Shown here: positions 3,791 through 25,631 of the stretch, in pieces
How positions within the stretch are numbered: position 1 is the stretch's first letter
Layout: each line of letters starts with the position of its first letter
DNA from: a virus
IMG/VR virus record: IMGVR_UViG_3300021961_000530
Location: 1-26,760 of that record
Reading direction: 5' to 3' (one strand)
DNA length: 26,760 nt
Program-made: the position numbers and the translations under genes
Notes under the pieces: model-generated
The model's database searches: none
What the model was told of the DNA's origin: nothing
Seen by the model: the letters and a program-made list of their open reading frames with translations, nothing else

Positions 3791-4909
3791 TTATTTAAAA
3801 TAAGGTCCTACCATCCAAGTAACAACTGAGTAGCGTATTCCTTTTGTTACTGGCTCTACGCCATGCACCATGTATGCAGGAAATACTAACACAGTTCCAG
3901 CTTTTTGTGGGGGGTAAAATGGCGTTCCCGATGCATTGAGAAAAAATTTTCCGCCCTCAAAATTATCATTCAAAAAAGCCAAAGCCGTGAGTTTTCTTGT
4001 CTCATCAGTATGAGCATGAAATGTGTCTACATGAGAAGTATAGCGCCCACCTGGTTCATACATTAAAAACTCTGTTTGATTGCTGTGCGTGATGTTATAT
4101 TGCCACCAATAATGATTAGCATTTAACGCTGTGGATGTAAGCACACCACCTATGCCTTTATTTTGTGGCAACATAAGTCGACTAACATCGCGTATCTCTT
4201 TATTAATAGTCCCATCATTATTACCAATGATGGGTGGTAACTTTGTATGTTTTTTCTTTGAATATTCTTTAATTAATTGGGTACAGAATTTATCTGTTAA
4301 ATGCCCTTCAAATACTGCACAATCAGTTAGAATTCGTTGACTGACTTGTTGTGTGTTATTAGATAGTTTAGGGATGCCTAAATTATCTCGACCATCATAT
4401 TTTTCATTTTTATGTATTCCGTTTGCATCTACATAATGTAAAAAAACTTGTGCTTGCCATTGTCCTTCTGTATATTTTTCTCGCCAATGCTCTACTTCTT
4501 GTCCACGATATAAAACAGCATCGCCTACTTTCATATCTACTTTATTACCATCCATGTAGATAGACCAAACATTTCCTTCAAAACCTAAAGTAATTGTTGC
4601 ACTAATTTCACATGCTGGTCGATCAGTATGCTTAACTAATTCCTCACCTGGAGCATATAGCCTAGCGTATGAGTAAGTAGGTAATAGTTTTAATCCACTT
4701 GCCGTTTCAAAGTTAGGTAATAAATCTTCTAGTAATTTATCAAAAGTAGTATGCCCATGCACAGCTTGTGACTTTGGACATTGACTATCTTTTTCTGTTA
4801 AACCATCTTTAACAGCTTGCTTTAGTATTTGTGTCAGTTCTGCACAATTTTGTTCGTCTAAAAAATCTTTTAAATAAACATAACCATTTTCTTTAAACAT
4901 ATTTTTCAT
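3791..4909 (-). CDS. Two-domain 2-oxoglutarate/Fe(II)-dependent oxygenase
   Basis: The 372 residues contain two double-stranded beta-helix oxygenase domains. The C-terminal one is textbook: H293-V-D295 and H349 as iron ligands, and R359 ten residues later as the 2-oxoglutarate anchor, in the prolyl-4-hydroxylase-like arrangement HGVEPVTKGIRYS. The N-terminal one has H94-T-D96 and H141, but no obvious arginine at the usual spacing (R143 and K145 are nearby), so it may be altered or inactive. I place the start at the ATG at 4909, which overlaps the upstream oxygenase stop as ATGA; a TTG at 4921 is also in frame. Such enzymes hydroxylate proteins, nucleobases or small molecules using O2; the substrate here is unknown. 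Location among fibre genes suggests a virion or host-surface target, which is inference. Confidence 0.88.
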   Translation of the reverse strand: MKNMFKENGYVYLKDFLDEQNCAELTQILKQAVKDGLTEKDSQCPKSQAVHGHTTFDKLLEDLLPNFETASGLKLLPTYSYARLYAPGEELVKHTDRPACEISATITLGFEGNVWSIYMDGNKVDMKVGDAVLYRGQEVEHWREKYTEGQWQAQVFLHYVDANGIHKNEKYDGRDNLGIPKLSNNTQQVSQRILTDCAVFEGHLTDKFCTQLIKEYSKKKHTKLPPIIGNNDGTINKEIRDVSRLMLPQNKGIGGVLTSTALNANHYWWQYNITHSNQTEFLMYEPGGRYTSHVDTFHAHTDETRKLTALAFLNDNFEGGKFFLNASGTPFYPPQKAGTVLVFPAYMVHGVEPVTKGIRYSVVTWMVGPYFK

Positions 4910-5436
4910 AATAAATTCCAAGAAATTATTGTTTTAATTTTATCTGATAAATTTGGTTTTGATTCATGTGGAATATTACTGCTAAAAGTTAAAACATCAC
5001 CTTCTTTTATTTCAGCCTCAGCTTTAGTATCTCTAAAGTGAAATGAAGTTTTTGGATTGTTAGTATCTAAATCAATATAATAAATATTAGAAAAACTGCA
5101 ATGTGGATGAATATGTTTTTTGTGATAATCATTTTTACTATATTGTTGAAACCAACATTGAATATTTGCGTGTTTGCTATAATGTTTTTTATCTAAATTT
5201 AAGTGATGTAAAACATTATTAAAAACTTGATTTACTATTGGATTAATAAAATCAACATAAGGTCTATGTATTTTTTTATCTAAATAAAAATCTGTATTAT
5301 AAATTTTTGAAAAATTATCTTCAAATGAATTAATTGGCATAGAACTAATAGCATCAAGAATTTGTTTTTTTATATCTTGATGATTTTCTATTTTTGTAAC
5401 AATAAAAGTGCTAGGTATATCAAATGTTTGATACAT
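4906..5436 (-). CDS. 2OG-Fe(II) oxygenase-like protein, 176 aa
   Basis: The middle of the protein, CWFQQYSKNDYHKKHIHPHCSFSN split around residues 94-116, matches the pattern of the PF13759-like putative 2OG-Fe(II) oxygenases of marine phages: an aromatic strand, H-x-H-P, then a strand with YYIDL. A distal histidine H157 (in NIPHES) and K166 or K168 would complete the site. The stop overlaps the start of the two-domain oxygenase, so the two genes are translationally coupled and probably act together. No Shine-Dalgarno is visible before the ATG; the upstream gap is an A/T tract. The substrate is unknown. The lysine in place of arginine in the anchor region is a point to examine. Confidence 0.8.
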   Translation of the reverse strand: MYQTFDIPSTFIVTKIENHQDIKKQILDAISSMPINSFEDNFSKIYNTDFYLDKKIHRPYVDFINPIVNQVFNNVLHHLNLDKKHYSKHANIQCWFQQYSKNDYHKKHIHPHCSFSNIYYIDLDTNNPKTSFHFRDTKAEAEIKEGDVLTFSSNIPHESKPNLSDKIKTIISWNLL

Positions 5437-9600: not shown

Positions 9601-9983
9601 ATACATCTTTTCCCACCCCAATAAACATTGCCAAAAGATATAGAGTCAGGTGTTCCGCCCGTTTCAGTATTAGTTACTTCACATAATGAAAAAACATAAT
9701 ATAAATCTTGATTATTTGTTGAGATAGATAAATCAGTCATGATACCGCCTGTGTAAGCAGTGCCATAAATTACAGGAAGTTTATTATCGCCAGCAGGCGA
9801 AAGTTGTTGTCTGTTGCCTGGATTGGGTTCGGGAGTTGCATTGGTTTGACTAGGTGCATCAGGCGCAAAAAGTTTAGATATAATTGTGGATGCGATCATA
9901 TTAATAGCAAAAGCCATTACTGTTCCTGCAAAAGTTGCGGCAAATGCTTTGCCTGCTATTGCGGCTACTACTGCACCACCCAT
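6657..9983 (-). CDS. J-like tail tip / host specificity protein, 1108 aa
   Basis: The length, the place at the end of the tail genes and the N-terminus identify a central tail-tip protein of the lambda J type. Residues 1-40 are hydrophobic and alanine-rich, followed by the typical segment LPVIYGTAYTGGIMTDLSIS, where J-like proteins begin their hub domains. The region around residues 300-500 (FTYTTYTGGTGTIPRFTFNG to NLIEYNPDVYADVD) matches hub domains of the Phage-tail_3 kind. Fibronectin-like and beta modules follow. The last 300 residues hold several copies of a QTVFTP / NG / DYT module shared with the 490-residue fibre. Its start overlaps the acetyltransferase stop as TAATG. It should form the tip that contacts the host envelope. 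Confidence 0.88.
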   Translation of the reverse strand: MGGAVVAAIAGKAFAATFAGTVMAFAINMIASTIISKLFAPDAPSQTNATPEPNPGNRQQLSPAGDNKLPVIYGTAYTGGIMTDLSISTNNQDLYYVFSLCEVTNTETGGTPDSISFGNVYWGGKRCIFGANGKVTGLLDESLYDPGDPTAGVQDISGYMDIYLYSNGSSSGWNTASSAIGIMSATNLLYKWNGYKLMTNTAFAIVHIKYSQSRGITGLQQTRFQVINSRTQPGDCFLDYFSSTRYGAAIPLSQIDTASLTALNTYCSGSFTYTTYTGGTGTIPRFTFNGLLDTNRKIMQNIQSMSDCCDCLVKYNEIVGEWAIVVQSPDDVPVMDLNDSNIISSITVSPIDLSNSFNVIEVKFPDGSEKDTFNSSTFDLATLAPELLFPNEPVNKQSVSLYLTNDNVTAQFLANRMLKSAREDLQLTFDINYQGLQLEAGDIVTVTNTNYGWDEKLFRIMKVTEKFNESGQISATLNLIEYNPDVYADVDITQFTPAPNTGIGTPTAFGNIPIPIILNQYPSITNPAFDVQITSSSAGITQYAELWYSAYEFPTESQLFLAAVSEIQSNGDPYDVNTTLPPIQLFNIPAGNWYFFSKMVNALAESNYSDASLLFRWRPTTFQFSDRYIAVAYADDVNGTGFSLSPRNKSYFGLLNQTGTSPSLDANDYNWYIADPNFGTNIYLAYANRTGRKFSFDTDFAVSAGGGGAFVPSTASKFDPRVWSALEDGINYIDLDQATGQVLITGSTTVGTGEIAVTNNPDGRVIASLAQFLDFGGSPTFTGSAATLTIDIYGRVLGFTSPDEFYYTSNNYVATAGQTVFTPVARQPGYINGQDLILQNGLLLSTSEYTETTTTVTLNTGANAGDQISIISMRAVSSGTYYEFLHVYVDSVASNVVTWALGEMPFQYINIGDIITFDNTGTPTQYTVTGVDYASRQITVDISITASNGDSIYRYRAAGSSYPCFSRYEADLTAATFYTPTLWDISSGYEFLFLNGTVVNELDYDISSGSITNFPNTTTGKLTVIQFSENNLTTPTGTPVNTVRYTVNGQALYSFVYIADAFDLFANGVYNIQGTDYTTGTNTYSFTITPNNSTTVLVQQTFARAGAA

Positions 9984-10435
9984 TATTGAATCCTTTTAAT
10001 AAATATTTTTTCTATAAAATTACATCCAAGATATTCAAACAGTCTTGAATTATCTAAATGCGTTTTTGTGCTATATCTAATCATGTTAATACCAATAGAC
10101 TTTAAATATTCTTCTGCAAATTGAAACATTTTTATTCCTGTTCTGCCTTTACGATATTCAGGTTTAAGATAATAAATATCTTCAGTCGCTAACAAACAAT
10201 CTTTATAGTGAAGATTAAGCCCAACAAAAAAAACAATGTAACCTACTAATTCACTATCATCTTCACATAAAACAACTTTAACTAAATTCTTTTTATCTGC
10301 ATTAAAGTAAACATCATAATCAGGATTTAATTTTAACTCTTGAGTTACAGATAATTCTTTATAATGTTCATCAAATAGTTTTATTATTCGATCAAAACAT
10401 TCTTTAGCATTTGTTATCCTATATTGTATTGTCAT
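9983..10435 (-). CDS. GNAT family N-acetyltransferase, 150 aa
   Basis: A complete GNAT-size protein. The central strand ATEDIYYLKPEYRKGRTGIK holds the acetyl-CoA-binding R-x-x-G-x-G/A type loop (RKGRTG), followed by an alpha helix (FQFAEEYLKSIG) and the final ENLG-like part SRLFEYLGCNF. These are standard features of the fold. Its stop overlaps the J-like gene start, so it is built into the tail operon rather than inserted loosely. It could acetylate a tail component, a host protein or a small molecule; the sequence does not say which. Acetyltransferases appear at this place in other aquatic siphophages. Confidence 0.82.
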   Translation of the reverse strand: MTIQYRITNAKECFDRIIKLFDEHYKELSVTQELKLNPDYDVYFNADKKNLVKVVLCEDDSELVGYIVFFVGLNLHYKDCLLATEDIYYLKPEYRKGRTGIKMFQFAEEYLKSIGINMIRYSTKTHLDNSRLFEYLGCNFIEKIFIKRIQ

Positions 10436-16300: not shown

Positions 16301-16645
16301 TTAAACCTCTGTTGTTGGATCAGAACGATAACACATTAGCGTTACACTCATTCTATCATTAGCTTCTAAACAATCTGCTATTCGCCACTCATTACCCCTA
16401 TATGTTATAGAATATAAATTTTGATTATTAGAAATTGTTTGCATATTTGGTGTGTAATTAAACTTCATACTAATCAAATCTTGATAAACTCTATATCTTT
16501 CAGAAATAGCAACTGATGCTTTAACTTCACCAACTAATGGTCTACTAGAAAACCATTTTGTAATTGTGGTTTCCCCTTCGCCATAAGCGTTAGTTGCAAA
16601 TGTTAAAGTATTAACATCCACCTGTTCATATCTTGCTATCGCCAT
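16301..16645 (-). CDS. Head closure / head-tail adaptor protein, 114 aa
   Basis: A 114-residue protein at the usual adaptor position. Features are the N-terminal strand pair, the segment TKWFSSRPLVGEVKASVAIS followed by SERYRVYQDLISMKFNY, then YSITYRGNEWRIADCLE, which is the typical ending of SPP1 gp16-like head closure proteins (Y-x-I/V-x-Y/W-x-G-x-x-W-x-I). The start overlaps the connector stop as TAATG. It would plug the portal-connector after packaging. Two cysteines are present. Confidence 0.78.
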   Translation of the reverse strand: MAIARYEQVDVNTLTFATNAYGEGETTITKWFSSRPLVGEVKASVAISERYRVYQDLISMKFNYTPNMQTISNNQNLYSITYRGNEWRIADCLEANDRMSVTLMCYRSDPTTEV

Positions 16646-17280
16646 TACATCACCAAAGGTTTATAAGGTCTTAATAAAGCATCTACTCCATAAGGAATTG
16701 TCTGCAAACCACCATTTGTTGTTTCACTTCTGTTATTGTATAAATGCGTAAATAACAATAACCCAGCTTGTTTGATAACTGGGTATTGTGCTAAATCACT
16801 TTCAGCTAATGTATATTCAATAACAATAGGTGAAGTTCTATTAGTATTAATATCAGTTGGCATTGAATTTAAAACAATTTTATCGCCACTTGCATCATAA
16901 TAATAATTGCTTGATGCAATGGTAGTTAATACATTTGATAAATTGTAATATTTAACTGAATTAATAGTTATTCCATTTAGTGAAGTTTGCGGCAAGTCAA
17001 AACTTACTGGCGAACCATACATTTCACTTCCATAATATACTCGATAAGATACATCAAATATAGGCATCCCCAAATAGTCCTCAATGTGCATCCTTACCGC
17101 TAATTCTAACGATAAAAGATATTCGTCTTGAGATTCATCTTGAAACAAATTAAGTTGATTAGTAATCTGCTCAAGTGAAAGCCATTGTGCGCCAATATTT
17201 CTTTCTATCTGTTCAAACTTATGATAGTTAAATGGGTTGTTATTTATCCCATAACTATTACTGGTAAGTGTGGTTGTCAT
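16645..17280 (-). CDS. Head-tail connector (gp6-like adaptor), 211 aa
   Basis: Helix-rich protein following the capsid genes. A helix with LSLELAVRMHIEDYLGMPIF, strand regions around VSFDLPQTSLNGITINSVKY, the KYYNLSNV segment, and the end QAGLLLFTHLYNNRSETTNG followed by PYGVDALLRPYKP match HK97 gp6 / gp15-like connectors. In that family the last helix and the LL-R-P-Y tail contact the portal ring. An AAGGCGG sequence before the ATG works as Shine-Dalgarno. It would form the adaptor ring below the portal. Confidence 0.85.
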   Translation of the reverse strand: MTTTLTSNSYGINNNPFNYHKFEQIERNIGAQWLSLEQITNQLNLFQDESQDEYLLSLELAVRMHIEDYLGMPIFDVSYRVYYGSEMYGSPVSFDLPQTSLNGITINSVKYYNLSNVLTTIASSNYYYDASGDKIVLNSMPTDINTNRTSPIVIEYTLAESDLAQYPVIKQAGLLLFTHLYNNRSETTNGGLQTIPYGVDALLRPYKPLVM

Positions 17281-17282
17281 TA

Positions 17283-18323
17283 TTAACCGCCTTGAACTAA
17301 TATACCTGCAAATGGATCGCGAACTGTACTTACTACTCGTTTTTCAGCAAATAGCGTTACTGTTCCTGGTTGTGTTTGGTCAAAGCGTTTAATTGTTATT
17401 TCAGGTATATCACCAATTGCCCAAAACTTACTCCAATCAGCTAAAACAATTGAAACTTGACCAGTTCCTCGTTCTTCCAAATATGGATTAGGAATTACTG
17501 GAAATCCTAATAAATAAACAGCAGGACCGCCATCTTCATCACCAACTTCTTTAAGAATTGGATCACCGCCAGTTGCAGTTAATTTTCTTAACCAAGCAAT
17601 CGTTGTTGGATGAATATGCCAGGCAGTATTTTCTGTCCAATATTGTGGTGGCAATGCTTCGCAAACATCAACTAAAGTATTGTAATCAATATCATTAGTA
17701 TTTTCAGTTATTGTTTTAATAGTGTGAATACCATCAGTAATTGCAGTTCCACTTGAACCAAATGATGCACTTGAACCACGATTATATGAAGTTAAACCTC
17801 TTAATCCTTCTTCTGCGCCTGTTGCATCAGTTGATGAACCTGATTGGTCATCGTTAGTTCCCATAGATTGACCTTCTAATTCTGAAAGTTCATCTAATAA
17901 GTCTTGTGCAACAATTTCATCTAATCCATTAATATCATCTAGGGTTGCGCTTCTAATAGGCAACTGTGCAGATACTACACGCACTGGTAATTGCCAAGTT
18001 GAAGTAGCAATATTAGGTGATCCACTGTTAGCATTTACAATATAGCCCCAGGGGTTTGTTGAATCTGCCGCATTACCAAGTTTTGCTACAAAAGTCATAT
18101 CAGAACCATCAATTAATGTTTGACGACTTAAATAGCGAAAAGGGTTTGTATAACGCATTTGGTCAAACGCATTATCAAAATAAATTTTACCACCTTTATC
18201 TGAACCTGATCCTGTTAGAGCAGATGATTCGTTTACTTCTTTAGATTCGAGCAAATTTACTTTGGCTTGCCCTTCGACTAATGCCCTCTTTACTCCAATC
18301 AAAATTTGTTCAGTTATTTTCAT
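17283..18323 (-). CDS. Second HK97-fold major capsid protein, without N-terminal delta region, 346 aa
   Basis: A paralogue of the gene just upstream in transcription. Both share ALTGSG (residues 35-40 here, 115-120 there), NPxRxxSRxxxxDGS, WGYxVN, PIRxAxLDDI, the SMxxNDDQ region, GLRGL, the HP-x-x-x-x-x-x-R-x-L motif, LLGFxVxxNxY and the ending RYDQTxPGxxTxxxEKR... (FDQT here) with DPFA. It lacks the roughly 80-residue coiled-coil front of the other copy and starts MKITEQILIGVKRALVEGQA. It could be a second shell subunit, a penton or a minor capsid form, similar in principle to T4 gp23/gp24, which is inference. A Shine-Dalgarno AGGA lies seven bases before the ATG, behind a terminator-like hairpin. 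Confidence 0.88.
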   Translation of the reverse strand: MKITEQILIGVKRALVEGQAKVNLLESKEVNESSALTGSGSDKGGKIYFDNAFDQMRYTNPFRYLSRQTLIDGSDMTFVAKLGNAADSTNPWGYIVNANSGSPNIATSTWQLPVRVVSAQLPIRSATLDDINGLDEIVAQDLLDELSELEGQSMGTNDDQSGSSTDATGAEEGLRGLTSYNRGSSASFGSSGTAITDGIHTIKTITENTNDIDYNTLVDVCEALPPQYWTENTAWHIHPTTIAWLRKLTATGGDPILKEVGDEDGGPAVYLLGFPVIPNPYLEERGTGQVSIVLADWSKFWAIGDIPEITIKRFDQTQPGTVTLFAEKRVVSTVRDPFAGILVQGG

Positions 18324-18340
18324 AATTATTCCTAATAATT

Positions 18341-18368
18341 AAAAAAGGATCGGGGAGAAAATCTCCCC
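18341..18368 (-). terminator. Terminator-like hairpin between the two capsid genes
   Basis: A perfect seven-base-pair stem GGGGAGA/TCTCCCC (bases 18352-18368, three-base loop) is followed on the coding strand, after GATCC, by six T residues. This is the strongest hairpin with T-run in the window and lies between the first and second capsid genes. The separation of the T-run from the stem by five bases makes it weaker than an ideal terminator, so partial read-through is likely. It could lower expression of everything downstream or protect the upstream mRNA end. Confidence 0.65.
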
Positions 18369-18381
18369 TTTCCAATTATTG

Positions 18382-19734
18382 CTATACAGTAGCAGTTGCT
18401 GTTGATCTATAACGAACAATAGCGAATGGATCAACAACAGAAGTTGCTAATCGTTTTTCACCATAGAATGTAATAGAACCAGGTAGAGTTTGGTCATAGC
18501 GTCTTAAAACCATGTCCATACGATCTACAATGGTATGACCTTTTTGCCAATCACCAAAGTACATTGGATATAAAGAATCAGTACCTGCTGAAGAATCAAC
18601 AGATGGTGCATCAGCATAAGTGTTTACAACTACATTAAAGCCTAACAATTTGCCAACGATTCCATCATCTCTTGATAAACCATCAACATAAATTGGTCGA
18701 CCTTGATCGTCTGTTAAACCACGGATTGCTGAAAGCATTACTGGATGAACAACAAATGCTGCTGATGGTGTCCAATATGCTTGTGGTAAAGCGTATACAA
18801 AATTAACAATATCTTTATAAGTTACATTGTTATCTAATGTATTTCCGTTAGTTGTAAGCTGATCGTAAGTAGCAATATCATGCAAACCTGCTGATGAACC
18901 TGTGCCGCTTGTACCAAATGCAGCAACAGAAGTTGCGCCACCAGTATAAGAAGCATTAACACCTGGATATTGATCTAAACCTCTTAAACCATTAGAACCG
19001 CCATAAGGTAAAGAAGTAGCACCTTGGTCATCGTTTTGCATCATGCTTAATGCTTCAGCTTGGCTGAATTCTTGAAGCATATCTGATACAACATTAGATT
19101 CAAGTCCATCAATATCATCTAATGCAGCAGTTCTAATAGGGAACTGAACATTAAGGTCTTGAAGTGTTAATTGCCAAATGTTTGTATCAACTGTCGTTGC
19201 AGCAGTATTGTTATTAACAGCATAACCCCAAGCAGCACCAGCGTTACCAACTTTAGCACGGAATTGATATGTAGAACCATCAGTTGCAACTGTGCGTGAA
19301 ACACCTCTTAATGGGTTTTGTAATCTTAATGAATGAAATACTGGATCATAAGATGTACGACCACCAATGCCTGCGCCTGAACCAGTTAATGCTGATGCTT
19401 CTTTTAAAAACGCATCATATTGACCTTCGTCTGCAAACATTTTAATAGATTTTTCAACACGACCACTGCCTTTGATGTATTCTCTTAATTGTTCTTTTAC
19501 AGAACGATTAACTTCGCTTGCAATTGTTTTATATGTCTTAATAACTGGAGTTGCATTAATTTCAGCAACTTTAGTTTCAAGAACAGCAACTTTTTCTTCA
19601 AAAGAAAGTTTAGTTGCTTCTACATCTGCTTTTGCTTGTTCTAATTCTGTTCTGACTTCAGCTTTAACAGCTTCAATCTGTTCAGCATTAGAGGCTTCAA
19701 TAGCATCTAACTTTTCAATAATTTTTTCTGACAT
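18382..19734 (-). CDS. Major capsid protein, HK97 fold, with N-terminal delta domain, 450 aa
   Basis: The first 65 or so residues are a highly charged coiled coil (MSEKIIEKLDAIEASNAEQI and following), typical of the delta scaffolding region of HK97-type capsid proteins, followed by residues 66-110 and then EASALTGSGAGIGGR where the mature shell protein is expected to begin. The body has the family landmarks: LRLQNPLRGVSRTVATDGST, PIRTAALDDIDGLESNVVSD, NGLRGLDQYPG, and the end RYDQTLPGSITFYGEKRLAT followed by VVDPFAIVRY. The protease gene directly upstream should remove the front part, with cleavage near residue 110 as inference. An AAAGGATAAATC Shine-Dalgarno precedes the ATG. Confidence 0.93.
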   Translation of the reverse strand: MSEKIIEKLDAIEASNAEQIEAVKAEVRTELEQAKADVEATKLSFEEKVAVLETKVAEINATPVIKTYKTIASEVNRSVKEQLREYIKGSGRVEKSIKMFADEGQYDAFLKEASALTGSGAGIGGRTSYDPVFHSLRLQNPLRGVSRTVATDGSTYQFRAKVGNAGAAWGYAVNNNTAATTVDTNIWQLTLQDLNVQFPIRTAALDDIDGLESNVVSDMLQEFSQAEALSMMQNDDQGATSLPYGGSNGLRGLDQYPGVNASYTGGATSVAAFGTSGTGSSAGLHDIATYDQLTTNGNTLDNNVTYKDIVNFVYALPQAYWTPSAAFVVHPVMLSAIRGLTDDQGRPIYVDGLSRDDGIVGKLLGFNVVVNTYADAPSVDSSAGTDSLYPMYFGDWQKGHTIVDRMDMVLRRYDQTLPGSITFYGEKRLATSVVDPFAIVRYRSTATATV

Positions 19735-19737
19735 GAT

Positions 19738-20544
19738 TTATCCTTTAATACGATTGTTTAAAATTTTAAGCAAATCTCTTTCTGCAATAGCATTAAGAAT
19801 TGCTTGTTCATCTACCACCGCATCAGCATCACTCTGAATTAGTGCTTGTTCTTCAACAGATTTAGTTGCATCACGCATTTCTAAAATTTGTTTGAAGATA
19901 GAAGATGCGGTGGTCGCATCTTTTCTTGAAAGTTTTGCATCACGCAATGCCTTCTCGATTACTTTTAGGTCCGCAGAACCATCGTTGCGGAAATACTCTA
20001 ATCTCGTTACATTACATTCAAGGTTATTAGGTTGCATTACAATAGATACTTCTCTTAATCCGCCTTTAGTAATTTGGAAATAACCATCCATATCATCGCC
20101 TTCATCAAGCATATTGCCTTCAGCATCTACCATACAATATTCATCAGCATAAGCACCAACAGATACTCCGCCAACTAAATTTGGACTTTCTTTCATAATG
20201 TTATATAAATCATTACCAGCAGATGTATTTAAAAATAACTTTCCTTCAGCTTTCATGCCTACATCATCCATTTCAAATTTTGTCCATTGTCCAACTGGCA
20301 AAGATTCGTCATCATGCTGAAAATACATAGGTAATGGTTTATCCATAGCTTCAAACTCTTTAAACCAGTCCATAAATCCTTCAGAATTATAATTAAATTT
20401 ACGACCATCAGCACCTTCTCTAGCACCCCAAGTCGTAACCATAGCTTCTACTAAACCATTTGAACCTTCAGCTTCATCAGTATTAACTCCTAACTCAACT
20501 TTTGATTCATAAAAAAATTGAATATTTTTTATTTCTTTAGTCAT
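19738..20544 (-). CDS. HK97-family prohead protease, 268 aa
   Basis: The serine protease that matures the capsid. Catalytic candidates are H77 in MYFQHD and S128 in the GGVSVGA motif, both standard for the S78/U35 family; the strand after it (GGLREVSIVMQPNN) is also diagnostic. The N-terminal 40 residues hold the usual VEAMVTTWGAREGADGRKFN region. The last 70 residues form a charged helical tail that may act as scaffold or capsid-targeting arm. The start at 20544 is inside the 3' end of the small upstream ORF and has GGGAG eight bases before it. Gene order portal-protease-capsid supports the call. Confidence 0.9.
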   Translation of the reverse strand: MTKEIKNIQFFYESKVELGVNTDEAEGSNGLVEAMVTTWGAREGADGRKFNYNSEGFMDWFKEFEAMDKPLPMYFQHDDESLPVGQWTKFEMDDVGMKAEGKLFLNTSAGNDLYNIMKESPNLVGGVSVGAYADEYCMVDAEGNMLDEGDDMDGYFQITKGGLREVSIVMQPNNLECNVTRLEYFRNDGSADLKVIEKALRDAKLSRKDATTASSIFKQILEMRDATKSVEEQALIQSDADAVVDEQAILNAIAERDLLKILNNRIKG

Positions 20545-20653
20545 TGATTGGCACTCCCTTTTCCTTTATTCCATAAGTTTCAAGTGGCAATGGTTTCCTT
20601 TTTTTTGCCGCTTGGGTTAATTTAAGTAATAACTCTTTTAATGTTGGTTTCAT
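20537..20653 (-). CDS. Small basic hypothetical protein between portal and protease, 38 aa
   Basis: The ATG at 20653 overlaps the portal stop as ATGA and the frame runs 38 codons to a TAA, overlapping the protease start. It reads MKPTLKELLLKLTQAAKKRK followed by PLPLETYGIKEKGVPIND. The front half is an amphipathic lysine-rich helix. It fills a gap that would otherwise be empty and keeps the coupling chain of overlapping stops and starts intact, which supports that it is translated. No family is recognised; a role in prohead assembly is only positional. Confidence 0.65.
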   Translation of the reverse strand: MKPTLKELLLKLTQAAKKRKPLPLETYGIKEKGVPIND

Positions 20654-22059
20654 ACACTACCTGCTCGACCAGTTTTGCCAATAGAAGATATATTTCCGCC
20701 ACCACCTGTATCTTGCGGTGAACTTCCAGCTATTGGATCAGTTGATTTTTTGTTACTATCTTTTAATTGGTTTGCGTTATCAATATTAGCTTTGCCTAAA
20801 TATTCTCGCGCTTCATTAGGTGTAATAATACCATTATTTACTCCAGCTACTACATAATTCATTTGATCTATTGGTGCGCCTTTTAAGAAATTTTCTGTTT
20901 GAAACTCAATGCAAAGATTTGGATAGCCATTTAGTAATGCTGTTTTAAATTTTTGTTGAATATTTGTAAGCATTGGGGACATAGTAGATTTATAAAACTC
21001 ATCTAGCATAGTTTGTGTGTTGTTATATTTACTTTCCCCAATTCCAATCATTGCAGGCGGAACTCCAAACAAACCACATATTCTTTTCATTGTTTGTTCT
21101 TTAAGTTTAGCGCAATCTGCATCTTGTAGCGTAAGCATATCTAATGGAAAGTATTTCATGCCATTATCTAACAACATAGATTGACCAGGCTTACTTGGAT
21201 CAGATTGTTGTGATCCAGTTAAACTATTCCAGGCTTCTTTAAGTCTTGCAGCTATCTCTTTAAATTTTGCATCAGGAATTACTTGATCTGTAACAAACAT
21301 ACCTGATGGTTTTGCACCATTTTGCATAATAAAGTTAGCATATAAATCAATATCCTGATCTAAACCAACTAATTCAACTGCTAATATGCCTTTATTAAAT
21401 CCAGCTACACCTTGCCATGCAGCTTCCGTAGTGTGAATAATTTGATGTGCTTTTAATGGCGCATCTTTATTAAATCCATAAGTAGAACTTGATAAAATGT
21501 ATGTTGGATAACGAGTAGAAGAAATTTGAGCAGTAATTAAAGTGCTGTCCAATATATACATTTCTAAAGGTGTTTGTTGTGAGTTCTCTTGTTCTTTGCG
21601 CCATAGAGCAGTAAATGTTTCACCTGCTAGGTCATACCACATTGAGAATTGATACCAAAACTCATAAGAACTTTGAAAGTTATTTGGGTTATTTAATAAA
21701 CTGTATACTGATTTTGCTTTTGCTTTATCTCTAGCAGATACATTAGGATTAGTAAGGGCATCAACTAATTTGCCATCTTCACCATAAGCCATAATCTTTA
21801 CTGGTAACTGTGCTAACGCTCTTGCTTTCGCACCAACGCAAGCCATAACTGTTGAGTTGCGTGATAAGGTAGTCATGTCAACTGCTCTACCTGCATTAGT
21901 TACAGATGAAGTAGTTACATATAATAATTGATTATTAACAGTATTTTGTCTGTTAGCATTTTGTAAAACATTATTACCTAGTATAGATTGACCAAAAAGC
22001 GTGTTACTTTCTGTTGCGTTTTTACTAGGTTTCTTTTTGAATATATCTAATATTGCCAT
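20650..22059 (-). CDS. Portal protein, HK97 type, 469 aa
   Basis: Forms the dodecameric ring at the capsid vertex. Typical segments are the start MAILDIFKKKPSKNATESNT, the region STVMACVGAKARALAQLPVK followed by IMAYGEDG (the family's conserved N-terminal helix and strand), SSYEFWYQFSMWYDLAGETF, LKEQTMKRICGLFGVPPAMI, and NNTQTMLDEFYKSTMSPMLT, which are the core motifs of HK97-like portals. The last 40 residues are a Gly/Ser-rich, probably disordered end. Shine-Dalgarno AAAGGAAAAAC before the ATG. It lies directly after the large terminase, the normal order. Confidence 0.93.
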   Translation of the reverse strand: MAILDIFKKKPSKNATESNTLFGQSILGNNVLQNANRQNTVNNQLLYVTTSSVTNAGRAVDMTTLSRNSTVMACVGAKARALAQLPVKIMAYGEDGKLVDALTNPNVSARDKAKAKSVYSLLNNPNNFQSSYEFWYQFSMWYDLAGETFTALWRKEQENSQQTPLEMYILDSTLITAQISSTRYPTYILSSSTYGFNKDAPLKAHQIIHTTEAAWQGVAGFNKGILAVELVGLDQDIDLYANFIMQNGAKPSGMFVTDQVIPDAKFKEIAARLKEAWNSLTGSQQSDPSKPGQSMLLDNGMKYFPLDMLTLQDADCAKLKEQTMKRICGLFGVPPAMIGIGESKYNNTQTMLDEFYKSTMSPMLTNIQQKFKTALLNGYPNLCIEFQTENFLKGAPIDQMNYVVAGVNNGIITPNEAREYLGKANIDNANQLKDSNKKSTDPIAGSSPQDTGGGGNISSIGKTGRAGSV

Positions 22060-22068
22060 GTTTTTCCT

Positions 22069-23727
22069 TTAAAAAGAACGGAATCCGTATGTTGTAGAAA
22101 TAAAGGGATGATCGAGTGAACAATGAAGGGAAATAATAAGAGCAATGATACCATCGACCTTAGCACTTTTATCAGCTTCATTTTTGCGAATCTTGATGTT
22201 ACCATTAACATCTTCATAGACTTCACAATTATCCAATTGCCATCCTACAAACGGGTTTCCATTATGTCTTATCGCATTGGACATTATCAGCTTCTCTGCG
22301 TGCTTGGATGGGTTGTTAAGAACAGCCATTCCTTGACCGACTTTTTTTACTGGTATGCCAAAATCATGTAATCTTGCAACTAAACTAGCTGCATTATACG
22401 CATCATACCCCACTTCTTTAACATTGTATAGTGTCGATTCATTTTTTATGTATTCTGATATTTCTCTGTCATCCATAACATTGCCTTCTGTTATGTGAAG
22501 TATTTTAGATTGAATTGCCTGGTCAAATATAGATCGATAATGACTTGGCACTAATTCTAAAGCATCTTCAGGAAGAAAGAATTTAAAGTTTGCATAATAA
22601 TCATTTTCTGAATATCGCTTTAATGTACAAACTGCATTTAAGTCACGAGTAGCAGCTAAATCAAATCCAATAAAGACCGCTTCAGGTTCAGGCTTATCTT
22701 CACCAATAGAATCATCCCAATACTTTCTATCTATCCAGGCACTATTGGCACTTACATATACATTAAGTGTTTTACATAGAAACTCATTAAGTGATGCTGG
22801 TTTTAATTGTGCTTGAGCGCATCGTTCTTTAATAGCATCTTGATAAATACTAATGCCGTGCATTGGATTAGCTTTTGCCCAAATAGATTCATCTCTCCAA
22901 TCATCCGCAGGATCAAGTCCATATAGCAATCCAAACCAATGTGGATTATCAGGTGCTTCACCAATAAGCATTGATTCAAACATTGAATAATCTTCATAAA
23001 ACTTTGTGTCTTTAGAAAATGATGCAGTTGTAATATATATACGCAATGGATTTTTACGAGCCACCATACCTGAGAAAACTACTTCAATTGTATTGCGATC
23101 TACAATCTGTGCAGCTTCATCAATGATTGCACAAGAAGCATTTTTACCATCGCCTGTTTTTTTATTATCACGACTTAATGCTCGAAACATAGATTGAGAA
23201 TCACCAACTTTGCCAATATGATATTTGCTAACATTAAACCACCCTTGCAATGTTTTAGGCATAGATTCAATCATTCCTCTTGCAGCATCAAATACTATTG
23301 TGGCTTGTTCTCTGTTTGTAGCTAATGTAAACACTTCTGCACCAGCTTCATTAAACATTAATTCATACAAACCAATGATTGCTGTTAAAGTTGATTTACC
23401 TGCTTTGCGTGGAATAAATACAATAACATCTGTTGTCATTCTGCGGCTATGATCTTTTTTATGTCTGAATCCATAAATAGCGCATAACAACATTATTTGA
23501 AATGGTTCAAGGTTTATTTGCTTGCCAGCGTCAGGACCTTTTGTGTGTTTTAATATTGAAATAAATTCTAATACATGATCTACATATTCATGAAAAAACT
23601 CATATTCCCAATGTTTGTCTTCATAAAAATTAATAAATCTTTGGCATGATAATTGTATGTTTTTACAAACATCAATATTTCCTTTGATTACATTTTGAGC
23701 ATATTCAAACCCATCTTGCCATTTCAT
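22069..23727 (-). CDS. terL: Terminase large subunit (P27-like), 552 aa
   Basis: The packaging motor and nuclease. The Walker A motif PRKAGKST is at residues 106-113, the Walker B IIDEA at 201-205, and the C-terminal nuclease domain starts with the metal-binding D356 in GFDLAATRDLNA. A P27/Terminase_1-type ATPase signature is visible in VFTLATNREQATIVFDAARG. The length is normal for the family. The start overlaps the small terminase stop as ATGA. All key motifs that can be read are present, so the protein should be active. No intron or frameshift is seen. Confidence 0.95.
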   Translation of the reverse strand: MKWQDGFEYAQNVIKGNIDVCKNIQLSCQRFINFYEDKHWEYEFFHEYVDHVLEFISILKHTKGPDAGKQINLEPFQIMLLCAIYGFRHKKDHSRRMTTDVIVFIPRKAGKSTLTAIIGLYELMFNEAGAEVFTLATNREQATIVFDAARGMIESMPKTLQGWFNVSKYHIGKVGDSQSMFRALSRDNKKTGDGKNASCAIIDEAAQIVDRNTIEVVFSGMVARKNPLRIYITTASFSKDTKFYEDYSMFESMLIGEAPDNPHWFGLLYGLDPADDWRDESIWAKANPMHGISIYQDAIKERCAQAQLKPASLNEFLCKTLNVYVSANSAWIDRKYWDDSIGEDKPEPEAVFIGFDLAATRDLNAVCTLKRYSENDYYANFKFFLPEDALELVPSHYRSIFDQAIQSKILHITEGNVMDDREISEYIKNESTLYNVKEVGYDAYNAASLVARLHDFGIPVKKVGQGMAVLNNPSKHAEKLIMSNAIRHNGNPFVGWQLDNCEVYEDVNGNIKIRKNEADKSAKVDGIIALIISLHCSLDHPFISTTYGFRSF

Positions 23728-24194: not shown

Positions 24195-24382
24195 TAGATT
24201 TCTTTACCTGTTAAAAATTCAGCAAACTCTTTATTCATTAATGCTATCTGCTTTATTTCACACTTGTCTTTATTGTTCATAGATTCATGTTTTTTAATAG
24301 CATGAGATTTATGTATAAACAAACATTCTTCAACTGGTTGTTTGTCATGTTTATATACTACAGTCCATCTGCTAAATATCAT
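24194..24382 (-). CDS. Small hypothetical protein, 62 aa
   Basis: A basic, lysine- and histidine-rich protein of 62 residues starting MIFSRWTVVYKHDKQPVEEC and ending EFAEFLTGKEI. Its start overlaps the methyltransferase stop as ATGA and its stop overlaps the small terminase start as TAATG, so it is linked in the operon. No membrane helix, and only two cysteines that do not form a zinc motif. The family is not recognised. Confidence 0.7.
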   Translation of the reverse strand: MIFSRWTVVYKHDKQPVEECLFIHKSHAIKKHESMNNKDKCEIKQIALMNKEFAEFLTGKEI

Positions 24383-25533
24383 AATAGTTCCGCCTTTTTA
24401 CCTGTAAATTCTTCCCAGCGTTTTACTATAACATCACAATAATATGGTTCAAACTCCATTATGTAACATGACTTATTAGCTTTTTCGCAGGCGATTAAAG
24501 TTGAACCGCTGCCACCAAACAAATCTAATACCGTAGACACTTCTCTAAAGTAATCAAAAGACCATTCAGCTAAAGCAACAGGCTTTTGTGTTGGATGCAC
24601 GCGTTTTTGTCCATGCTCAGAGCCTTTAATTAAGCCTTTCCAAAGATGTCTAAATATTCTAACACTTGACCATTTAGATTTAACCCAAGCCAATTCACAA
24701 TCTGATTGTGTATCTGTCATTTTGTCTTCTACTCTTTTATCCCAAACAAACCAATTATTTGATTGTGGTAAAGCATGGCAATAATAATTAGCTCCCCACC
24801 AAACTTGTCTAGGAATGTTTAACACTCCCTCCACAATTTGATAAGCCTCAATGGCATAATCAATGGTATCGTCTTTAAAATCTTTTAAATTATTGCCTTG
24901 TGTTAAACCTCCACGCTTTGACCTATCGCCTTTTTCATTAATACCATATGGAGGATCTGTATAACATAAATCAATCTTTGCGTTATTAACTAGCTTATCT
25001 ACTGCATCTATACTTGTGCTATCACCACACATTAATCTATGATTACCTAGCTGGTATATGTCCCCTAGCTTTGTTGTGGGTTCATCAGGAACTTCAGGAA
25101 CTTTATCTTCATCAACTAATCCTTCAATGATAGGAGTAAATTCTTTTAATTCATCTGCGCTAAAACCTGTCAATCCTAAATCAAATCCTGCGTCTTTTAA
25201 TTCTGCAATTTCTAATTGTAAAATTTCATTATCCCATCCTGCGTTTAACGCAAGTTTGTTGTCAGCAATAATGTATGCTTTCTTTTGAATTTCAGTTAGC
25301 TCTGATAATTCTATTGTTGGAACTTCAATTTCGTTTAATTTTTTTGCAGCCATTAATCTTCCATGACCAGCAATGATTCCGTTTTCACCATCAAGCAAAA
25401 TTGGATTAGTCCAACCAAATTCTTTTATGCTCGAAGCAATTTGCGTGACCTGGTCATCACTGTGTGTGCGTGAATTGTTTATGTAAGGAATTAAATCTTC
25501 TATTTTTTTATATTTTATTTCAATCTTATTCAT
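24379..25533 (-). CDS. ParB-like nuclease domain fused to DNA adenine methyltransferase, 384 aa
   Basis: The first 100 residues are a ParB-N domain: IKEFGWTNPILLDGENGIIA followed by GHGRLMAAKKL at about residues 37-66. The second part is a class beta DNA methyltransferase with motif IV DPPY (193-196), the HPTQKP motif (313-318) and motif I DLFGGSGS (337-344), an order IV then I. DPPY usually marks N6-adenine methylation, though N4-cytosine enzymes are related. I chose the ATG at 25533, preceded by a seven-G run serving as Shine-Dalgarno; an in-frame ATG at 25545 and a TTG at 25593 are alternatives. Fused ParB-methyltransferases are common in phages and probably protect the phage DNA; the target sequence is not known. 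Confidence 0.88.
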   Translation of the reverse strand: MNKIEIKYKKIEDLIPYINNSRTHSDDQVTQIASSIKEFGWTNPILLDGENGIIAGHGRLMAAKKLNEIEVPTIELSELTEIQKKAYIIADNKLALNAGWDNEILQLEIAELKDAGFDLGLTGFSADELKEFTPIIEGLVDEDKVPEVPDEPTTKLGDIYQLGNHRLMCGDSTSIDAVDKLVNNAKIDLCYTDPPYGINEKGDRSKRGGLTQGNNLKDFKDDTIDYAIEAYQIVEGVLNIPRQVWWGANYYCHALPQSNNWFVWDKRVEDKMTDTQSDCELAWVKSKWSSVRIFRHLWKGLIKGSEHGQKRVHPTQKPVALAEWSFDYFREVSTVLDLFGGSGSTLIACEKANKSCYIMEFEPYYCDVIVKRWEEFTGKKAELL

Positions 25534-25545
25534 ACACCCCCCCAT

Positions 25546-25631
25546 GCTCAACCCCAAATGCAGAGAATTGGGTTCGCGCCTGCTCAGATTCAAACCCCAA
25601 AATATTTAAGTTATTAATTTTTTTTATTTGT
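25546..25631 (-). other. GC-richer intergenic segment upstream of the methyltransferase
   Basis: This 86-base gap is visibly richer in G and C than its surroundings. It has two TTTGGGGTT copies (around 25599-25591 and 25558-25550 on the coding strand) and an imperfect stem GGGTT/AACCC. It is not a tRNA, and no consensus promoter or terminator is evident. It might be a cohesive-end, operator or packaging signal because it lies close to the terminase genes, but nothing proves this. Confidence 0.3.

Follow-up and report, generated by a model that had tools for sequence, protein, structure and literature searches.

In textbook HK97-type siphophages, the hexamers and pentamers of the shell are made from one protein by conformational switching. 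The locus described here instead has two adjacent genes for proteins resembling major capsid proteins, and the question is whether both are shell proteins and, if so, how they may share the work. The window, a virus record of 26,760 bases analysed at its full length, carries the head and tail module of a phage on its minus strand, to which all coordinates given here refer. The head module has the terminase large subunit TerL (22069-23727), the portal protein (20650-22059; PHROG 12, E=3.1e-66) and, directly upstream of the pair, the prohead maturation protease of the peptidase S78 family (19738-20544; PF04586, E=4.7e-11; PHROG 80); the two capsid genes follow, the first (M1, 18382-19734) encoding 450 residues and the second (M2, 17283-18323) encoding 346, positions and sizes that the first-pass annotation had given exactly. 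The gene after M2 encodes a head-tail adaptor (16645-17280; PHROG 442 and 40), with further connector and tail genes past it. As for the rest of the strand, overlapping 2OG-Fe(II) oxygenase genes (3791-4921 and 4906-5436; PF13640, PF13759) are found among tail-fibre-like genes, a GNAT acetyltransferase-like gene (9983-10435; PF00583) occurs among tail genes, and the product of 24379-25593 has a C-terminal N4/N6 DNA methylase domain (PF01555) and an N-terminus that is ParB-like in look.

Two homologous capsid proteins

Regarding their relationship, M1 and M2 are identical at 131 of 333 aligned residues (39%, BLASTP E=1e-67), and both match PF05065 (Phage_capsid) well above its cut-off of 24.2 bits, M1 with 116.6 bits (E=1.8e-33) and M2 with 74.5 bits (E=1.2e-20), as well as PHROG 10, the "major head protein" family. 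The landmarks ALTGSG, WGY, PIR.A.LDDI, NDDQ, GLRGL, LLGF, DQT.PG, EKR and DPFA occur in the same order in both, as had been read from the sequence at the outset.

Structure prediction of the single chains gave an HK97 fold, with E-loop, spine helix, P and A domains, for both proteins, which matched the RcGTA and HK97 capsid chains, so that the original description of tandem, homologous HK97-fold capsid genes holds. The AlphaFold2 model of M2 (pLDDT 75) had the RcGTA capsid protein as best match (Foldseek E=1e-17), with a VIA-align Z of 22.9 over 256 residues at 3.7 Å, against a Z of 18 for HK97; the model of M1 is weak (pLDDT 61), and its best match was also the RcGTA capsid protein (E=2e-15). 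Sequence profiles agree, placing the RcGTA capsid protein Rcc01687 first for both families (E=2e-10 for M1 and 2.6e-07 for M2), and this protein is thus the closest solved structure by profile and by fold. RcGTA itself, a gene transfer agent, has one capsid protein and is not known to carry a second copy. A frameshift, or a duplication introduced during assembly of the record, was considered as the origin of the pair and ruled out, since the copies are only 39% identical and are conserved as separate clades.

A single duplication and its conservation

Related loci were collected from IMG/VR and from bacterial genome contigs; M2 alone gave no match as a query in the viral scan, and two-sequence alignments then served as queries, together with a combined M1+M2 query. 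Loci were counted if they were non-redundant, had the 3′ end of M1 complete and extended at least 300 nt beyond it. Among the matches listed, M2 directly follows M1 in 132 of 132 counted loci, with no exception, which excludes a chance pairing, and the combined query retrieved no close relative with a single capsid gene among the matches listed from the viral and bacterial genome collections; M2 was not found in plasmids. A Shine-Dalgarno-like AGG precedes most M1 and M2 starts among these matches. The lineage is one of freshwater phages and occurs frequently in virus collections of environmental, mainly aquatic, origin.

Its cultured member is the Methylophilaceae phage P19250A (KX815270; 38.7 kb), which infects a freshwater methylotroph. 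Genes 5 and 6 of this isolate are 66% and 55% identical to M1 and M2 of the window, respectively, and the order is the same (TerL, portal, a gene in the protease position, M1 and M2), with a hairpin between the two copies; the record labels gene 5 "gene transfer agent capsid protein" and gene 6 "hypothetical protein". The OM43 phage Venkman has been described as syntenic with P19250A (PMC8163748); tblastn matched neither M1 nor M2 in its genome (MT375522), and the head module in its record is of another kind, with scaffolding encoded as a protein of its own.

The history of the pair was reconstructed from a tree of 44 M1, 44 M2 and six single-copy outgroup capsid proteins. All M1 sequences form one clade (SH-aLRT 99) and all M2 sequences another (93), and the two together are separated from the outgroups with a support of 100; this topology indicates that one duplication took place before the lineage radiated, and the phylogeny of the copies across related phages, proposed from the start as a check, finds the pair conserved. 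The six outgroup phages each have a single capsid gene in their annotated head operon, in agreement with the remark that siphophages normally have one.

Both copies are under purifying selection, with a median dN/dS of 0.195 for M1 and 0.211 for M2 (330 pairs with dS < 1 in both genes); a value for M2 as low as that of M1 implies a functioning protein, and the possibility raised earlier, that one copy might have escaped such constraint, is not borne out. The M2 of the window has an unusually long branch (0.82, compared with 0.16 for its M1), most M2 end branches being far shorter; this copy may have evolved faster, or may have been acquired from a source outside the sample.

M2 also shows variation of its own. 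Near-identical M1 proteins are accompanied by diverged M2 proteins in two pairs of loci (L068/L069 and L049/L052), which suggests recombinational exchange of M2 between phages, separately from M1; no strict co-evolution of an interface is seen in these cases. In four loci (L045, L082, L125 and L133) the open frame of M2 gains about 100 residues at its N-terminal end; in L045 (2807-4138) the extension matches PHROG 2859, a family of unknown function, with E=1.5e-31, and an in-frame internal ATG is found at the usual start. In L164 (2852-4102) M2 has instead an insertion of about 60 residues, of low complexity and rich in Thr and Gly, in the predicted E-loop. Extensions and insertions of this kind would suit a shell position of low copy number and are suggestive at most.

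Features that distinguish the two copies

The first difference concerns the N-terminus. In M1, the 112 residues up to and including the invariant Glu112 (19399-19734) constitute a delta, or scaffolding, pro-region with a coiled coil, predicted as a helix spanning residues 2-59; this long coiled coil is limited to M1, as the first-pass annotation had it. Its further statement that M2 lacks the delta region is correct for the coiled coil and overstated for the rest, because M2 retains 32 residues up to and including its invariant Glu32 (18228-18323), with a predicted helix at residues 3-17 and the same putative cleavage motif. The pro-peptide of M2 is thus minimal but not absent.

The motif common to both families is E-(A/S)-S-x-L-T-G, whose Glu is invariant in 44 of 44 M1 and 44 of 44 M2 sequences; in M1, Glu112 is followed by A-S in the 44 orthologues. 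In phage P1, the cut falls between Glu and Ser (E120/S121; PMC9024508), which makes a cut after the Glu of the motif plausible here. As M2 keeps a peptide ending in the same motif, the S78 protease probably trims both proteins, with cleavage predicted beside Glu112 and Glu32.

As for the capsid bodies, 65 columns are conserved and identical in both families, and 11 positions are fixed for different residues; seven of these 11 are in the A domain, approximated as residues 201-300 of the window's M2. This excess gives a one-sided binomial p of 0.018, in a small test with approximate domain boundaries. M2 is also devoid of two segments conserved in M1, at around residues 258-265 and 294-296. The A domain lines the centre of the capsomer, and the differences would fit a change of capsomer symmetry, without proving one. 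In T4, some of the gp23 mutations that bypass the vertex protein gp24 lie in the gp23 A domain (PMC9958956).

The third difference is one of position. The gap between M1 and M2 has a terminator-like hairpin with a T-run (18342-18368), in which a G+C-rich stem and its loop, GGGGAGA-TTT-TCTCCCC, are followed by GATCCTTTTTT (z −2.1). Such a hairpin occurs in 41 of 43 orthologous M1-M2 gaps, where dinucleotide shuffles average 3.3, and in two of 43 at each of the flanking junctions; the sequence of the apical stem and loop differs in 32 of 42 stems, meaning that the sequence has drifted around a conserved structure. M2 is thereby grouped with the connector genes on the side presumed to be expressed less, and M2, being behind the hairpin, is probably made in smaller amounts than M1. 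The hairpin was also considered as a feature peculiar to the pair; this was dropped and the hairpin weighed as a clue to expression only, given that it is frequent after the capsid gene of single-copy outgroups (under the criterion used for the pair in L183 and L184, lacking the T-run in others) and may simply predate the duplication. The simple reading is that an ancestral post-capsid terminator was retained, leaving M2 behind it and M1 in excess.

How the shell may be divided

Taken together, the single duplication, the universal retention of the pair, the selection on both copies, their distinct conserved residues and their predicted HK97 folds give good support to the earlier proposal of a duplication with division of labour. 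The most probable form of this division, with a probability of about 0.62, is that M1 forms the hexamers and M2 the pentameric vertices. It is the best explanation in the light of two precedents, T4 gp24 and SaPIbov5 Ccm, and of the position of the hairpin.

The first precedent is gp24, the vertex protein of T4, which is about 20% identical to gp23 and is regarded as the product of a gene duplication; the N-terminal peptide cleaved off is 65 residues long in gp23 and 10 in gp24 (PMC9958956). The likeness lies in two HK97-fold paralogues of which the second has a much shorter pro-peptide, cleaved in T4 and predicted to be cleaved here, and M2, like gp24, is a duplication-derived paralogue of the major capsid protein, as the clade supports given above indicate. 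T4, however, a large and prolate myophage, has its scaffold as a separate core, whereas the phages of this lineage have a small genome, delta-domain scaffolding and copies that are 39% identical. No homology of M2 to gp24 was found in a profile search of the PDB, which returned only RcGTA-type and cf-PICI capsid proteins up to E=0.1; M2 may thus work like gp24 and yet be the product of an independent duplication.

The second precedent is Ccm of SaPIbov5, a homologue of the phi12 capsid protein with a delta region of 87 instead of 128 residues, which forms pentamers only and makes no shells alone (PMC8569155). This is likewise a delta-domain HK97 system having a homologue with a shorter delta region; the gene for Ccm, however, belongs to a satellite hijacking a helper phage, whereas here both genes are in one phage operon and M2 immediately follows the M1 of the phage itself in every counted locus among the matches listed. 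Neither gp24 nor Ccm is among the best VIA-align matches of the M2 model, which excludes neither.

According to the hexamer-plus-penton reading, the capsid gene would have been duplicated once in the ancestor of the lineage, and the copies would then have shared out the shell. M1, with its full delta domain and made in large amounts, would build the hexamers; M2, having lost the coiled-coil part of the delta region and kept its 32-residue pro-peptide, would be made behind the hairpin, probably in fewer copies, and would supply the pentamers of the 11 vertices other than that of the portal, the S78 protease removing the pro-regions of both. A T=7 head, a size suggested by the genome length of P19250A, would then contain about 360 copies of M1 and about 55 of M2.

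Among the alternatives, an unlikely one, although the most probable of them, is a mixed shell whose capsomers contain both M1 and M2, at a ratio that may be constant or may vary, and into which the delta domains of M1 bring M2. Both copies have the same fold and the 65 shared columns, and two-component HK97-fold shells exist, an example being the Family 2B encapsulin of Streptomyces lydicus, with two HK97-fold paralogues in one shell according to the titles of its PDB entries (9bje, 9bix), which are among the fold matches of M2. This encapsulin is non-viral and has neither maturation protease nor portal, and M2, which lies among protease, portal, terminase and adaptor genes, does not have the setting of a non-viral shell with cargo loading. 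Against mixed rings stand the identity of 39%, the different A-domain residues and the indels, all of which make separate rings likelier; in addition, capsomers are homotypic in the closest worked precedents, Ccm and gp24, and the hairpin suggests unequal amounts of the two proteins. The stricter version, an obligatory two-paralogue shell across this whole lineage of small siphophages, with mixed capsomers in which the short copy needs the long copy's delta domains for assembly, is slightly less probable still; if true, it would make the assembly scheme a new one, distinct from a T4-like specialisation of vertices.

It is also doubtful, and a little more so, that M2 has a minor role in the shell or its assembly, confined to one place such as a ring of subunits next to the portal vertex, or determines head size, rather than being a component of all vertices. 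The location of its gene after the hairpin, together with those of the connector, and the domain of about 100 residues fused to its N-terminus in L045 and L082, would agree with such a role, but M2 is a capsid paralogue whose body is intact, for which a place in a capsomer is the best fit, and no HK97-fold paralogue is known to be limited to the portal ring.

Less probable again, at the level of an outside chance, is that M2 may be absent from the virion altogether, either forming a separate particle or compartment or regulating assembly and then being discarded. HK97-fold proteins also form encapsulins, several of which are among the structural matches of M2; however, the gene is locked between those of the capsid and the head-tail adaptor, the protein most resembles virus and gene transfer agent capsids (the Z of 22.9 for RcGTA compares with about 16 for the best encapsulin) and it keeps the maturation motif of M1. 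Finally, that M2 is a degenerate leftover without function, as the long branch in the window might suggest, can be practically dismissed, given its presence in every counted locus among the matches listed, a purifying selection as strong as that on M1 and the invariant residues retained in the window's own copy.

In conclusion, specialisation of the vertices through capsid duplication is already known, mainly from the much larger T4, and the literature covered, outside which the original P19250A paper falls, yielded no account of paired capsid genes in this group, nor of such specialisation in it or in small delta-domain siphophages. If M2 does form the pentons, this lineage would have evolved specialised vertices on its own, and with a genome roughly one quarter as large as that of T4. 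The M1/M2 pair also makes the loss of the delta-domain scaffold from one copy directly amenable to study, and it illustrates that genes annotated as "hypothetical protein" beside the capsid genes of environmental phages can be second capsid proteins.
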